Source of the DNA: Planctomycetia bacterium
Lineage (GTDB): Bacteria > Planctomycetota > Planctomycetia > Pirellulales > UBA1268
Direction: 5' to 3'
DNA length: 64,000 nt
NCBI GenBank assembly: GCA_014192425.1
Contig: BJHK01000017.1
Coordinates: forward strand, 1-64,000
Shown: piece by piece, positions 46,000 to 52,482 of the stretch
Position numbering within the stretch: the stretch's first letter is position 1
Layout: each line of letters begins with the position of its first letter
Position numbers and translations under genes: made by a program
The notes under the pieces: generated by a model
Database searches by the model: none
The model's input: the letters and a program-made list of their open reading frames with translations, nothing else
What the model was told of the DNA's origin: nothing

Positions 46000-47301
46000 T
46001 CACGTGCCGTCGGCGGCCGCATCCGCACCCTCCACGGCATGATCGGCGGGCGGTTCCGCCCCGCCGCTCGCGGCCACCGCGTCGGCGACTTCGGCGTCGG
46101 CCGTCACCTTCGACTGCTCCCGCTGCTTGCGCCGCTCGTCGGCCGCCGCCACCTCGGCCACGGCGGCCCGCTGCTCGGCCTCGGCGACGATCGCATCCAC
46201 CGCCTCCTCCGACAGGCCACCGATCTCCATCAGGTCGGCGGGCTCGATCACCGACAGGTCGTCGTAGGACAGGAAGCCCTCTCCCACGAGCCGCTCGGCG
46301 ACGGACTCGTCGAGGCCTTCGATCGAGGAATAGCCGGCGATCGCCCGCTCGATCTGCTGGTCGAGCTCCTCGCGGGTCATGATCTCGATGTCCCAGCCGC
46401 AGAGCTTGCTGGCAAGCCGCACGTTTTGGCCGCGCCGGCCGATCGCCAACGACAGCTGGTCCTCGCGGACGAGGACGATGCCCCGACCGAGCATCTGGCA
46501 GAGGATGACCTCGTCCACCTCCGCCGGCTGCAGCGCGTTGGGCACCAGCACCTGCAGGTCGTCGCTCCAGCGGACGATGTCGATCCGCTCGCCGCCGAGT
46601 TCCTCGACGATGTTCTTGATGCGGTTGCCGCGCACGCCCACGCAGGCACCGACGCAGTCGATGCGGCTGTCGGAACTGATCACAGCGACCTTGCTGCGAT
46701 AGCCGGGCTCGCGGGCGATGGCCCGGATTTCGATCACGCCGTCGGCGATCTCGGGAATCTCCTGCTCGAAGAGCCGCTGCACGAGCTGCGGCCGGATCCG
46801 CGACAGGATGATCTTCACCCGGGTACCAACCTTGCGAACCTCGAAGATCGTGGCCCGGACCCGCTCGTTGGCGTGATACGACTCGCCCGGGATCTGCTCG
46901 CTCCGCGGCAGGATCGCCTCGGTGCTGCCGAGCGTGACGGTGGCTGCAGCCCCCTCGAACCGGCCCACCACACCCGACACCATCTGCCCGATCTGCTCCT
47001 CGAACTCGTCGTGGATGGCATCCCGCTCCGCCTCGCGGATCTTCTGGATGATCACCTGCTTGGCGGTTTGCGCCCCGATCCGCCCTGCCAGTTCGGCGGT
47101 GTCGAGAGTCTGACCGTCGCGGGTGCCGGAGACGTGGCCGTCGGCACGGTCGATCGTGAGCGCGATGGAGGACTCCTCGCCATACTGCCTGGCGAGGGCC
47201 GTGATGAGGGCGGCCTCGATCGCCTGGAACACGACTTCCTTGTCGATGTTCTTGTCGCGATGAATGGCGTCGACGATGCGGAGAATTTCTTCAGGCTTCA
47301 T
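46000..47301 (-). CDS. nusA: Transcription termination/antitermination factor NusA
   Basis: NusA binds RNA polymerase and modulates pausing, termination and antitermination. The 433-residue protein has the N-terminal domain ([28 protein letters not shown]), an S1 domain ([27 protein letters not shown]) and two KH domains ([27 protein letters not shown] and [22 protein letters not shown]). It also has one C-terminal helical repeat and an acidic Ala-rich tail. rimP, usually just upstream, is missing here. A good promoter lies 142-170 bases upstream. Confidence 0.97.
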
Positions 47302-47520: not shown

Positions 47521-48843
47521 TCAGGAATCGTGCCAGCGGCGAAACGCTAGGGCGCCGGCCTGTCCCTGGGGCGTCACGGCGACTGACACGAACAGATTGC
47601 CGGCCGGGTCCCCCCGGCGGGCCGCGCGAACCGGGCACTCGGGATCGGCCTCCTCGTAGTTGAGGAGCGGAAACAGCTCGCCGCGCTGCATGGCCAGCAG
47701 GCTGGCGACGCACTCGACGAGCCCGCTGCCCCCGCCGAGGTTGCCGAAATTCGCCTTCGCCGCGACCGTCGGCACGCGGCCGACGGCATCCCCGAGCACG
47801 TCGCCGAGGGCCGCCGCCTCGGCCCGGTCGCCGAGCACCGTGCTCGCGCCGTGAGCATGGACGTGCCCCACATCCTCGGCGCCCGCGTCGGCCGACTCGA
47901 GGGCCCGGCCGACGGCCTGCGCCGTCACGCGGCGCCGCAGGCCGACACCCGCCTTGTCCGTCCCGCACCGCGCCGCATGACCGACGACCTCGCCGTAGAT
48001 CCGCGCCCCGCGGGCGCGGGCGTGCGACAGTTCCTCGAGCACGAGGACCGCCGCCCCCTCGCCGAGAACCATGCCCTGACGCCCCTTGTCGAAGGGGCGA
48101 CTCCAGCGGGCGGGGTCTCCCGTGCCGAGCGCCACCTGCTCGCTCTGCAGGGCGTGCACCGTCTTCATGGGATGAACGCGGGTGCCGGTGGCGCCGGCGA
48201 GCATGGCATCTGCCGCACCGCGTCGGATTGTGACCAGGGCCTCGCCCACGGCGAGGTGGCCGCTGGCCTCGCGAAGCGTCAGCGAGTTGCTCGGCCCGCG
48301 CAGATCGTTGTAGATCGCGATGTGGCTGGCGGGCATGTTTGGCAGGTACTTGAGGAGCCAGAGGGGGGTGATCCGCGACATGCCATCGGTCGCCCAGCGG
48401 TCGAAGGTGAACGTTCCGTCGGCAGCCCGGCAGTGGACGACGCTGGCGGTGAAATCCTCAGGCACGGTGAGCATGTAGTCGGAGCCGAACACGCAGCCGA
48501 TCCGCTCTGGGGCATGGTGCCCGGCAACGCCCCCCGCGTCGTGGAGGGCGCGCTGGGCGGCCGCGACCGCCATCTGGCTCTCACGGCACATCACCTTGAG
48601 CCCCTTGCGGATCGCCTTCTTGCGCTCCCCCTCCAGCGGCCCGAAGTTGTCGATGTCGCCCGTGAACGCCCGGGCCTCCGCCGCATGCCGGAGCGGGATG
48701 CCGGCCGGGGGAAACAGGCTGATATCCCCCATCCCGCTGCGCCCCTCGAGGAGGCCCGACCAGAGATCGTCCAGCGTCAGCCCGAGCGGCGTGACGACGC
48801 CCATGCCGGTGACCACGACCCGTCGCGTTGCGGAGCCGCTCAT
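47521..48843 (-). CDS. Ketosynthase-like protein without catalytic Cys (KS-beta/CLF-like)
   Basis: This 440-residue protein has the thiolase fold of FabF (N-terminus RRVVVTGMGVVTPLG, later GQGMVLGEGAAVLVLEELSHA). Aligned to the adjacent FabF, the active-site Cys is replaced by Glu192 (TLREASG in place of TACASAA). The first His is kept (His331 in HAHGAST), but the second is Asn368 (NFGNLGG instead of QLGHTLG). It therefore should not condense by the normal Cys-His-His route. It may act as a non-catalytic partner, like a chain-length factor, or as a malonyl-ACP decarboxylase. ATG 48843 is used. It lies 112 bp after fabF. Confidence 0.8.
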   Translation of the reverse strand: MSGSATRRVVVTGMGVVTPLGLTLDDLWSGLLEGRSGMGDISLFPPAGIPLRHAAEARAFTGDIDNFGPLEGERKKAIRKGLKVMCRESQMAVAAAQRALHDAGGVAGHHAPERIGCVFGSDYMLTVPEDFTASVVHCRAADGTFTFDRWATDGMSRITPLWLLKYLPNMPASHIAIYNDLRGPSNSLTLREASGHLAVGEALVTIRRGAADAMLAGATGTRVHPMKTVHALQSEQVALGTGDPARWSRPFDKGRQGMVLGEGAAVLVLEELSHARARGARIYGEVVGHAARCGTDKAGVGLRRRVTAQAVGRALESADAGAEDVGHVHAHGASTVLGDRAEAAALGDVLGDAVGRVPTVAAKANFGNLGGGSGLVECVASLLAMQRGELFPLLNYEEADPECPVRAARRGDPAGNLFVSVAVTPQGQAGALAFRRWHDS

Positions 48844-48955
48844 GCCAGTTGCCCTCGTCGATGCCTGTGTGACCGCTCCGCAGCTCTCGACATGCCAGCC
48901 CGCCCCGCGTTGCCGTCGCACGCGCCGCGGCGCGGGGTCGCGACCCCGGCCGCCG

Positions 48956-50209
48956 TCAGTCGAGCCGCGACAGTACGAGCGATGCGTTGTGACCGCCGAA
49001 CCCGAAGCTGTTGCTCATCGCGACATCGACCCGGGCCTGCCGGGCCTGATTGGGCGTGTAGTCGAGATCGCAGTCGGGGTCGGGCGTGTCGAGGTTGATG
49101 GTCGGGGTGATGACGCCGTGATGGATCGTGAGGGCGCAGACGACGAGTTCGATGCCGCCACTGGCGCCGAGCGTGTGGCCGAGCTGGCTCTTGGTGCTGG
49201 AGATCGCCAGCCGCCGGGCGTGGTCGCCGAACACCCGCTTGACGGCGGCGGTCTCCGCCTTGTCGCCGAGCGGCGTGCTCGTGCCGTGGGCGTTGATGTA
49301 GTGCACCGCCTCCGGAGCGAGCCCCGCGTCCCGTAGCGCCATCGCCATCGCATGGCCGGCCCCACGCCCCTCCTCGTCGGGCTGCGTGATGTGGCCGGCG
49401 TCGCCGCTGGCCCCGTAGCCGCGCAGCTCCGCGTAGATCCGCGCTCCCCGGGCCCGGGCGTGTTCCAACTCCTCGATCACGACGACGCCCGCCCCCTCCG
49501 CGAGCACGAACCCGTCCCGCTCGACATCGAACGGCCGGCTCGCCCGCTGCGGGGCGTCGGACCGGAACGACAGGGCGCGCATGTTCTGGAACCCGGCCAG
49601 GCCGATCGGCGTGAGCGCTGCCTCGCTGCCGCCGCTGACCATCACGTCGGCATCGCCATACTCGATCGCCCGCAGCGCCGAGCCGAGCGAGTTGGCCGCG
49701 CTGGCGCAGGCGGTGGCAACCGCGAAGTTCGGCCCCTTGATGCCGTACAGGCTCGAGACGTGGCCGCTGGCGGAGTTGACCATCAGCTTGGGAATCGTGA
49801 ACGGGGAGACCTTGTCGATCCCCTTGTGGAGGAGCCGCTCCTCCTGAACCTCGAACTCCCACAGGCCGCCGATGCCGGAGCCGATGACCACGCCGCAGCG
49901 GTAGGGATCGGTCCGCGAGAAGTCGATCCCCGCGTCGCCAACCGCATCCTTGGCGGCGGCGATGGCGAACTGCGTGAACCGATCAAGCCGCTTGAGCTCC
50001 TTCGGGCCCGCGATGTCCTCCTTCTCGGCCTCCCAGTGCACCTGGCCGCCGAACTGGACGCGGTATCCGGAGACGTCGAACAGGCTGATCGGGCCGACGC
50101 CGCTGGCGCCGCTGACGAGCCGTTCCCAGACGAGCCCGAGCGGCCGCCCGAGCGGCGTCACTACGCCGAGCCCCGTCACGACGGCCCGCCTCTTAGTCCG
50201 TTGGCTCAC
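48956..50209 (-). CDS. fabF: Beta-ketoacyl-ACP synthase II
   Basis: FabF elongates acyl-ACP chains in fatty-acid synthesis. The 417-residue protein has the full Cys-His-His triad: Cys in VATACASAANS, His in NAHGTSTPLGDKAE and His in SQLGHTLGASGG. It follows acpP by seven bases, the common acpP-fabF arrangement. Length and N-terminus (RRAVVTGLGVVTPLG) are standard. Confidence 0.97.
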   Translation of the reverse strand: MSQRTKRRAVVTGLGVVTPLGRPLGLVWERLVSGASGVGPISLFDVSGYRVQFGGQVHWEAEKEDIAGPKELKRLDRFTQFAIAAAKDAVGDAGIDFSRTDPYRCGVVIGSGIGGLWEFEVQEERLLHKGIDKVSPFTIPKLMVNSASGHVSSLYGIKGPNFAVATACASAANSLGSALRAIEYGDADVMVSGGSEAALTPIGLAGFQNMRALSFRSDAPQRASRPFDVERDGFVLAEGAGVVVIEELEHARARGARIYAELRGYGASGDAGHITQPDEEGRGAGHAMAMALRDAGLAPEAVHYINAHGTSTPLGDKAETAAVKRVFGDHARRLAISSTKSQLGHTLGASGGIELVVCALTIHHGVITPTINLDTPDPDCDLDYTPNQARQARVDVAMSNSFGFGGHNASLVLSRLD

Positions 50210-50216
50210 GATCGCA

Positions 50217-50453
50217 TCAACCCTGATGCTTCTCGATGAACTCGACCGCCTGACCGACGGTCTGGATCTTCTCGGCGGCGTCGTCCGGGATGTTGATCTC
50301 GAACTCCTCCTCGAGTTCCATGACGAGCTCGACGGTGTCGAGCGAGTCGGCCCCCAAGTCGTTGATGAACGACGTCGCAGGCGTGATCTGGTCCTTGCTC
50401 ACACCGAGCTGGGTCGACACGATCTCGATCACTCGCTCTTGGACTGATGCCAC
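50217..50453 (-). CDS. acpP: Acyl carrier protein
   Basis: ACP carries growing acyl chains on 4'-phosphopantetheine. The 78-residue product starts at GTG 50453, which has AGGAGG eight bases upstream; the longer open frame upstream has no ACP homology. The attachment serine is in [14 protein letters not shown] and the acidic helix [17 protein letters not shown] follows. It lies between fabG and fabF. Confidence 0.97.
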
Positions 50454-50742
50454 CGTATGAACCTCCTGAAACCCGAATCCGAAGCCTGCTGAAACCGGAC
50501 GCCTTCGCAGCTGCATGCCGGCCGTCGGCCGCGGCCGACGTCACCGGGTCACCGTCGTGCACCCGCGGTCAACACGGGTGGAGGGAGACGTCCATGAAGG
50601 CGTTCCGTGCCCGAGTTCACGGCGAAGATATACCCGTTCCCGGTCGCCGCTGTCCAGCCCGGGAAAAACCGGGCGCCGTGGGGCCCCCGGGCAGCCTCGT
50701 CCGGCCCGGCAGCCCGGCCGCGCAGCCGGCCGCGGAGCACGA
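50454..50742. other. Gap between fabG and acpP
   Basis: This 289-bp stretch has no convincing gene. It contains a perfect 16-bp palindrome GTCGGCCGCGGCCGAC (about 50523-50538) and a GC-rich inverted-repeat region just after the fabG stop. The length is unusual for this operon and leaves room for a separate acpP promoter, though no clear one was seen. Confidence 0.35.
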
Positions 50743-51528
50743 TCAGCCGATCAGGCCGCCATCCACGACCAGCGTCTGGGCGGTGATGTAGCCGGACGAC
50801 GGGGCGGCCAGGAACAGCACCGCCTCGGCGATCTCCCATGCCTCGCCGAGCCGCTTCGCCGGCACCCGCTTCTTGACCTCGTCGAGCAGTGCCGGGCCGA
50901 GGGCGGCCGTCATGTCGCTGGCGATGAAACCCGGCGCGACGGCGTTGACCGTGATCTTGCGGCCGGCGAGTTCCTTGGCCACGGTCCGGGTCAGGCCCAC
51001 CAGGCCGGCCTTGGAGGCGGAATAGTTCGCCTGCCCGGGGTTGCCGATCAGGCCGGACACGCTCGCCACGTTGACGATCCGGCCGTAACGCTGCTGCATC
51101 ATCGGCCGGCTGGCGGCCCGCATGAACAGGAACGGGGCCCGCAGGTTCGTGGTCAGCACGGTATCCCACTCCTCGTCGCTCATCCGCGGCAGGAGCGTGT
51201 CGCGGGTGACGCCGGCGTTGTTGACGAGGATGTCGAGCCGGCCGAGTTTCTCCACGACCGTTTCCACGACCCGCTGGATGTCGTCCCCCTGGGTCACGTC
51301 GCAGGGAAACACCTCGGCCCGGCCGCCGGCCGCCGCGATGCCCTCCGCCACGGTGGCGAGCTTGTCCGCCGACCGGGCCACGAGGGCCACAGCGGCACCC
51401 GCGGCGGCGAGCGTCTCGGCGATCGCCCGGCCGAGGCCCTGCGAGGCTCCGGTGACGATCGCGACCTGGCCGCCGAGATCGATCTTCACACGGCGCGATT
51501 CCGCCGCGATTCCCGCTTTCTCAGCCAT
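50743..51528 (-). CDS. fabG: 3-oxoacyl-ACP reductase
   Basis: FabG reduces beta-ketoacyl-ACP with NADPH. The 261-residue short-chain dehydrogenase has the cofactor motif VTGASQGLGRAIA, NNAG, and the Ser-Tyr-Lys set in NVASVSGLIGNPGQANYSASKAG. The C-terminal VDGGLIG is typical. About 14 extra residues precede the Rossmann start. It lies 48 bp after fabD. Confidence 0.96.
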   Translation of the reverse strand: MAEKAGIAAESRRVKIDLGGQVAIVTGASQGLGRAIAETLAAAGAAVALVARSADKLATVAEGIAAAGGRAEVFPCDVTQGDDIQRVVETVVEKLGRLDILVNNAGVTRDTLLPRMSDEEWDTVLTTNLRAPFLFMRAASRPMMQQRYGRIVNVASVSGLIGNPGQANYSASKAGLVGLTRTVAKELAGRKITVNAVAPGFIASDMTAALGPALLDEVKKRVPAKRLGEAWEIAEAVLFLAAPSSGYITAQTLVVDGGLIG

Positions 51529-51576: not shown

Positions 51577-52482
51577 TCAGTCGAACACCCCGTGGCAGGC
51601 GACGCCGCGGTCGATCCGCTTCATCAGCCCGCGCAGCACGCGGCCCGGGCCGACCTCCCAGATCGTCCGCACGCCCGTGGAGAGGATGGATGCCATGGAG
51701 GCATTCCACTCGACAACGCCCACGACCTGGCGGGCGAGGAGCCGGCGAATGTCCGCGGGGTCGTCGTGGGGCCGGGCATCGACGTTGCTCACCACCGGGA
51801 TCCGCGGCGGCCGGACGGGTGTCTCCGCCAAGGCCGCCGTGAGCCGCTCCACCGCGGGCTGCATCAGCCGGGTGTGGAAGGCTCCGGCCACGTCGAGCGG
51901 CACGCACTTGAGCGCACCGGCCGCGGCGGCCGCCTCCTCCAGCCGCCGGCAGGCCGCGGCCGTGCCGGACACGACGATGTTACCCGGGCAGAGGACGTTG
52001 GCCACCTCGAGGACGTCCGCCGCGCGGCAGGTGTCGCAGAGATCGACGAGCTTCTCCCGTTCCACGCCGAGCACGGCGAGCATCGCGCCCGGGCTCGCGT
52101 CGGCACAGTCCTGCATCGCCCGGCCGCGGAGATCGACGAGACGCACGGCGTCGTCAAACTCGATCGCCCCGGAGAAGACGAGCGCCGTGTACTCGCCGAG
52201 CGACAGGCCGGCCGTGACGCCCGCCACGGTGAGCGGATTTCCTTCCCGCTCCCGCAGCACCTCCAGGGCCGCCAGGCTGGTGACGAGGATCGCCGGCTGA
52301 CTGATCGCCGTGGCCCCGAGTTTCTCGTGCGGCCCCTCGCGACAGATTTTGAGCAGGTCGTAGCCGAGAACTTCCGCGGCCCGTTCGAAGACCCGACGGG
52401 CGGCGAGGCTTTCGTCAACCCACGGCCCCGCCATGCCGACGGACTGGGCGCCCTGTCCGGGAAAAACGATCGCCGTTGCCAC
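51577..52482 (-). CDS. fabD: Malonyl-CoA:ACP transacylase
   Basis: FabD loads malonyl groups onto ACP. The 301-residue protein begins with IVFPGQGAQSVGM and has the nucleophile serine in GLSLGEYTAL and the catalytic His in AGAFHTRLM. It starts six bases after the rpmF stop, so the two are co-transcribed. plsX and fabH, often found between rpmF and fabD, are absent here. Confidence 0.96.
   Translation of the reverse strand: MATAIVFPGQGAQSVGMAGPWVDESLAARRVFERAAEVLGYDLLKICREGPHEKLGATAISQPAILVTSLAALEVLREREGNPLTVAGVTAGLSLGEYTALVFSGAIEFDDAVRLVDLRGRAMQDCADASPGAMLAVLGVEREKLVDLCDTCRAADVLEVANVLCPGNIVVSGTAAACRRLEEAAAAAGALKCVPLDVAGAFHTRLMQPAVERLTAALAETPVRPPRIPVVSNVDARPHDDPADIRRLLARQVVGVVEWNASMASILSTGVRTIWEVGPGRVLRGLMKRIDRGVACHGVFD

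Follow-up and report, generated by a model that had tools for sequence, protein, structure and literature searches.

The Cys-less ketosynthase homologue encoded beside fabF in this Planctomycetia bacterium, hereafter KS-Glu, is best understood as a non-catalytic subunit of the KS-beta type, similar to a chain-length factor, which would pair with a Cys-bearing ketosynthase. We assign this reading a probability of roughly 0.58. It is the best-supported one, and it rests on the missing nucleophile, the altered His positions, the lost gating loops, the tandem pairing and operon found across the phylum, and a predicted ketosynthase fold with some low-confidence segments. KS-Glu is an ancient, strongly conserved protein and not a curiosity of a single genome. 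Its residue pattern has been known since 2009; new here is a clade of Asp/Glu ketosynthases with a tandem architecture. Throughout, the window is the whole stretch of 64,000 nucleotides that was analysed, KS-Asp/Glu is the paralogue of KS-Glu encoded elsewhere in the genome, and KS2 is a second, Cys-bearing ketosynthase.

Residues, fold and conservation of KS-Glu

The sequence-only reading had placed a ketosynthase at 47521-48843 with Glu192 at the catalytic Cys position and Asn368 at the second catalytic His position, and alignment with FabF bears this out. The coding strand is the minus strand, the plus-strand frame being interrupted by stops, and residues are numbered from the ATG at position 48843 (Table 1). 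Both Pfam ketosynthase halves (PF00109, PF02801) are matched, and the score against the NCBIfam FabF model TIGR03150 is 263.1 bits, about half of the cut-off of 493.75. Instead of the Cys-His-His triad of FabF, KS-Glu carries E/H/N, and the alignment shows the loss of both gating loops of FabF, SFGFGG and the DAYHMT loop. Lys363, the residues of the strand preceding the Cys position and a basic RKxLK segment, where FabF also has basic residues, are retained; it is on the side of this segment that FabF meets ACP. The AlphaFold2 model of KS-Glu has a ketosynthase fold (mean pLDDT 89) and superimposes on FabF 1j3n with a Z score of 58.8 and an rmsd of 1.9 over 401 residues, and identity to solved FabFs is 27-36%. 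Thus, KS-Glu has its fold in common with FabF but lacks the Cys, the second His and the gate Phe. Model confidence is low at residues 128-130 and 160-169, which presumably fall at the dimer interface, where a partner would pack.

Table 1. Features of the KS-Glu locus (window positions; orthologue counts refer to 124 distinct Pirellulales sequences)
Feature	Position	Strand	Evidence
KS-Glu, Cys-less ketosynthase homologue, 440 aa	47521..48843	-	Pfam PF00109/PF02801; orthologues in all sampled class genomes; AlphaFold2 KS fold
Glu192 codon (GAG), catalytic Cys position (FabF Cys163)	48268..48270	-	Glu in 124/124 orthologues
His331 codon, first catalytic His position	47851..47853	-	His in 104/124 orthologues
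Lys363 codon, conserved active-site Lys	47755..47757	-	Lys in 123/124 orthologues
Asn368 codon, second catalytic His position	47740..47742	-	Asn in 119/124 orthologues
Pro425 codon, FabF gatekeeper Phe position (TPQGQA replaces SFGFGG)	47569..47571	-	Pro in 121/124 orthologues
Insertion of ~14 residues (131-144 of KS-Glu)	48412..48453	-	Alignment; common to KS2, not FabF/actinorhodin KS-beta
fabF, intact housekeeping ketosynthase II	48956..50209	-	TIGR03150 595 bits vs cut-off 493.75; full C/H/K/H/F set
Acyl carrier protein ORF	50217..50516	-	ORF translation; order kept in relatives
fabG	50743..51528	-	ORF; conserved order
fabD	51577..52482	-	ORF; conserved order
nusA, downstream neighbour of KS-Glu in many relatives	46000..47301	-	ORF; order in relatives

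Matches to the KS-Glu family were found in 60/60 relatives and in 118/118 sampled genomes of the class. Among the Pirellulales orthologues, Glu is invariant and Asn is kept in all but five, so that chance does not account for the variant, and a distinct subfamily, the case that the sequence-only reading had tied to conservation of both residues, is supported. The earlier statement that one His remains is correct for the window protein (His331) but not for the family, where the first His position is occupied by Gln, Phe, Arg or Tyr in 20 orthologues. Two findings had been named beforehand as speaking against a subfamily, namely relatives that keep Cys and relaxed selection. No orthologue has Cys, and dN/dS between close pairs of KS-Glu genes is 0.06-0.18, in the same range as FabF; KS-Glu is therefore under purifying selection, with no decay. 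A degenerate fabF duplicate on its way out, which the loss of Cys, His and gate Phe might otherwise bring to mind, is hardly credible: KS-Glu is not closest to FabF, belongs to an ancient clade, is missing from none of the class genomes sampled and is probably essential in one of them, and we reject a degenerate copy on the invariant Glu, the dN/dS near 0.1 and the conservation.

Several metagenome-assembled contigs titled Candidatus Kuenenia stuttgartiensis (L118, L119, L121, L122, L127, L128, L133) bear a Pirellulales KS-Glu of ~70-75% identity in a mostly Pirellulales gene order, and their labels look wrong.

In the window, KS-Glu follows fabD, fabG, the ACP gene and fabF and precedes nusA. 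The gap between fabF and KS-Glu (48843-48956) is only ~110 bases, whereas most relatives have a gene there that encodes a predicted secreted protein of ~400 residues (e.g., L007 2919-4098 and L036 7714-9400); the window genome has thus lost it, and a few other loci (L130, L134, L143) are also without it. The distance to fabF is no more than 6 kb in 13/27 genomes of the order, and in the sister group 16/28 have the two genes no more than 1 kb apart. Since about half of the genomes have this proximity and no fab gene stands beside KS-Asp/Glu in the loci read, KS-Glu is genuinely linked to primary fatty-acid synthesis, but not in every genome. The sequence-only reading had called a FabF partner of this sort unusual for a housekeeping fab operon; in the two orders, a KS-Glu gene near fabF is nothing unusual.

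Gene order and origin of the Cys-less clade

An Asp/Glu ketosynthase is encoded directly upstream of KS2 in 13/13 loci of the class (families f21 and f23-f26), and the same tandem, with either an Asp/Glu ketosynthase or its Cys-bearing sister as first gene, recurs in all deeper lineages that had sufficient flanking sequence; these counts exclude the order of the window and its sister group (f22), the order that contains Planctopirus. The operon elsewhere runs FabA-like dehydratase, FabG, ACP, dehydratase, Asp/Glu ketosynthase and KS2, with an alpha/beta hydrolase and a GH3 protein added in some lineages. At L217 2074-4834 and similar loci, the two-ketosynthase operon ends with the alpha/beta hydrolase and the GH3-family (acyl-adenylating) protein, which suggests an acyl amide or ester as its product. 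The KS2 locus of the window genome has dehydratases and ACP with no Cys-less partner alongside. In the wider clade, Asp or Glu occupies the Cys position in 25/28 members, and deep members have Asn, Ser or Gly there.

Three trees, rooted by FabF as outgroup, place the Cys-less proteins in one clade (support 100/98), KS2 as the next group and FabF outside. The sister of the Cys-less clade is formed by Cys-bearing first genes from lineage f39 (L195-L198), where both tandem genes retain Cys and the first groups with the Cys-less proteins; this pair is a living example of the state that preceded the loss of Cys. Three Streptomyces KS-alpha/KS-beta pairs were added as tree controls, and the resulting tree separates {FabF, Streptomyces KS-alpha, CLF} from {KS2, Cys-less clade} with a support of 100/99. 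A joint clade of the Cys-less proteins and CLFs is not rejected by the AU test (p 0.204). In a quick tree without these controls, actinorhodin KS-beta fell beside FabF at the end of a very long branch, and a first AU test was uninformative (p 0.88). The Cys-less clade and KS2 also have in common an insertion of 14-15 residues, absent in the alignment from FabF and actinorhodin KS-beta, which falls in the segment where actinorhodin KS-beta has its chain-length residues F109/T112/F116 (PMC4383371). Because actinorhodin KS-beta lacks this insertion, an origin separate from that of actinobacterial CLFs is favoured, and the KS-alpha/KS-beta-like architecture of Planctomycetota apparently evolved apart from the actinobacterial ones.

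It has been reported that Rhodopirellula baltica RB4527 (NP_866153) has Glu163, His298, Lys328, Asn333 and Pro392, and RB3714 has Asp163, His333 and Ser392 (Rattray et al. 2009, Table 2, PMC2649909). All five tabulated residues of RB4527 are found in KS-Glu, and RB3714 matches the Asp paralogue of the window genome; the residue pattern is therefore not new. In the passages concerned, that anammox lipid study argued for a non-elongation function and the recruitment of non-FASII units in the context of ladderanes. Gene order, the KS2 partner and essentiality, which those passages do not describe, are added here, as is the grouping of RB4527- and RB3714-type proteins in a single Planctomycetota clade of Asp/Glu ketosynthases. 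In the literature searched, we found no prior report of the phylum-wide pairing, of a likely separate origin or of a link to essentiality.

Possible functions of KS-Glu

Specialised polyketide pathways are known to include ketosynthase partners that have no catalytic activity. In a role of this kind, KS-Glu would be unable to load an acyl chain because Glu occupies the nucleophile position. We infer that it forms a heterodimer with a Cys-bearing ketosynthase, in which the acyl tunnel would be shaped at the dimer interface and would set the chains made. The ancestral partner would be the adjacent KS2. Duplication of the KS-beta gene in Pirellulales and their sister order gave rise to KS-Glu and KS-Asp/Glu, which left the KS2 operon; KS-Glu came to lie near fabF, so that FabF or KS2, or both of them, may be its partner here.

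As for the partner, the gene neighbourhood suggests FabF, ancestry and the common insertion suggest KS2, and KS-Asp/Glu could also fill this place. Pairing with either of the first two has a point against it, in that the window genome does not have KS-Glu beside KS2 and the common insertion is missing from FabF; about half of the genomes, moreover, lack KS-Glu near fabF. The earlier suggestion of a chain-length partner of FabF thus holds up as to a role of the KS-beta type, which the gene order across the phylum backs better than the window by itself could, and not as to FabF, whose partnership is unproven because the ancestral neighbour is KS2, with an insertion that FabF lacks. FabF as the sole ancestral partner is rejected, since elsewhere the tandem partner is KS2 with this insertion.

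Like actinorhodin KS-beta/CLF (1tqy_B), KS-Glu has a ketosynthase fold without Cys, altered His positions and the Lys, and in the wider clade the tandem with a Cys-bearing ketosynthase comes with ACP and KR. The usual KS-beta/CLF form, however, has Gln at the Cys position, as actinorhodin KS-beta does, and the Glu of KS-Glu counts against the KS-beta reading; the clade as a whole has Glu or Asp there, the beta gene precedes the alpha gene, and the 14-15 residue insertion and the grouping with KS2 set it apart from CLFs. The tandem with a Cys-bearing ketosynthase is, furthermore, a feature of the clade outside the two orders, whereas the neighbour in the window is the housekeeping fabF. The KS-alpha/KS-beta/ACP/FabG order of the Streptomyces controls resembles that of the ancestral planctomycete operon, and the parts of the ancestral locus (KS, KS-like partner, KR, DH and ACP) match those of highly reducing type II PKS such as the ishigamide (6kxd) and cispentacin (AmcF-AmcG) systems, in which a KS-CLF is combined with KR and DH (PMC10698177). 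Unlike these, the window locus has no such operon, and KS-Glu is also tied to primary metabolism.

The same observations bear on three functions other than that of a KS-beta-type subunit. A catalyst with new chemistry, in which the carboxylate and Lys363 would provide general acid/base catalysis on an ACP-bound chain, such as a cyclisation or dehydration (cf. the 'cyclization factor' AmcG), would account for the invariant Glu in Pirellulales, the predominance of Asp/Glu in the wider clade, the nearly invariant Lys and the persistence of two separate Cys-less paralogues, both probably essential. Deep members carry Asn, Ser or Gly, however, so that an acidic residue is not required in every part of the clade; we consider this function unlikely. 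The sequence-only reading had also offered a decarboxylation partner. A malonyl-ACP decarboxylase of the KS-Q type, with Glu for Gln, would make acetyl-ACP to prime synthesis, and the polar residue in place of Cys, the conserved Lys (123/124), the His331 position (His in 104/124) and the basic RKxLK segment would suit it. KS-Q proteins have Gln at the Cys position and both His, the latter described as indispensable for decarboxylation (PMC2649909), whereas KS-Glu has Glu, the second His is Asn in 119/124 orthologues, the first is lost in 20, and both gating loops are gone. A FabH above its family cut-off is also encoded in the window genome, so that priming already has an owner, and the idea that KS-Glu makes up for a missing FabH was discarded. 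A decarboxylase is accordingly disfavoured and appears quite unlikely; our search of the literature on Glu-type KS-beta proteins and malonyl-ACP decarboxylases returned nothing usable. A regulator or scaffold, whether homodimeric or free-standing, that would bind ACP but no ketosynthase partner would agree with the ketosynthase fold, the conserved strand before the Cys position and the basic segment on the ACP side, but would leave the phylum-wide tandem pairing with KS2 unexpected, and is very doubtful.

Extending the KS-beta reading, it is possible, and we suggest it only tentatively, that Planctomycetota, independently of actinobacterial polyketide synthases, evolved a KS-alpha/KS-beta pair in which an acidic residue replaces Cys, and that two orders recruited the KS-beta as a dedicated chain-length subunit of their essential primary fatty-acid machinery. 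If so, a whole bacterial group would control its acyl chains by a chain-length subunit that is phylum-wide, probably essential and encoded in or near primary fatty-acid operons, and the two orphan Rhodopirellula baltica genes noted in 2009 would be explained.

Ketosynthase paralogues and essentiality

The window genome encodes five ketosynthases of this type. Besides FabF and KS-Glu, these are KS-Asp/Glu on contig C6, whose Cys position holds Asp, KS2 on C4 and, on C2, a divergent enzyme that has the Cys. Planctopirus limnophila likewise encodes five stand-alone ketosynthases and no more. Two of these lack the Cys: one is of the KS-Glu type (E/H/K/N) and lies 849 bases downstream of fabF, the other is of a second type (E/H/K/H). 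The remaining three are FabF, KS2 and a divergent ketosynthase. The genome in our set (G134) is that of strain DSM 3776, as 3 kb of plasmid pPLIM01 are identical at the same coordinates. A transposon screen in this species describes a five-member group of ketosynthase paralogues, all essential, under a grouping rule that leaves out much longer proteins (PMC10632474). From the count, we infer that these are the same five, and KS-Glu and the second Cys-less paralogue are thus probably essential in P. limnophila. A chain-length subunit would provide a direct reason for the five essential ketosynthase genes.

The second Cys-less ketosynthase, with Asp (G000:C6:97364, L056), is present in every genome of the family examined. 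No consistent pathway was found around the Asp paralogue, its neighbours being a nuclease, a porin-like protein and, elsewhere in the order, a desaturase. Other families of the order have a divergently oriented fatty acid desaturase gene beside the Asp/Glu paralogue (L060 5163-6350; L063, L064, L068, L069), and one contig (G009:C37) has two facing copies of the Asp ketosynthase (L062 6488-7810 and 11358-12677).
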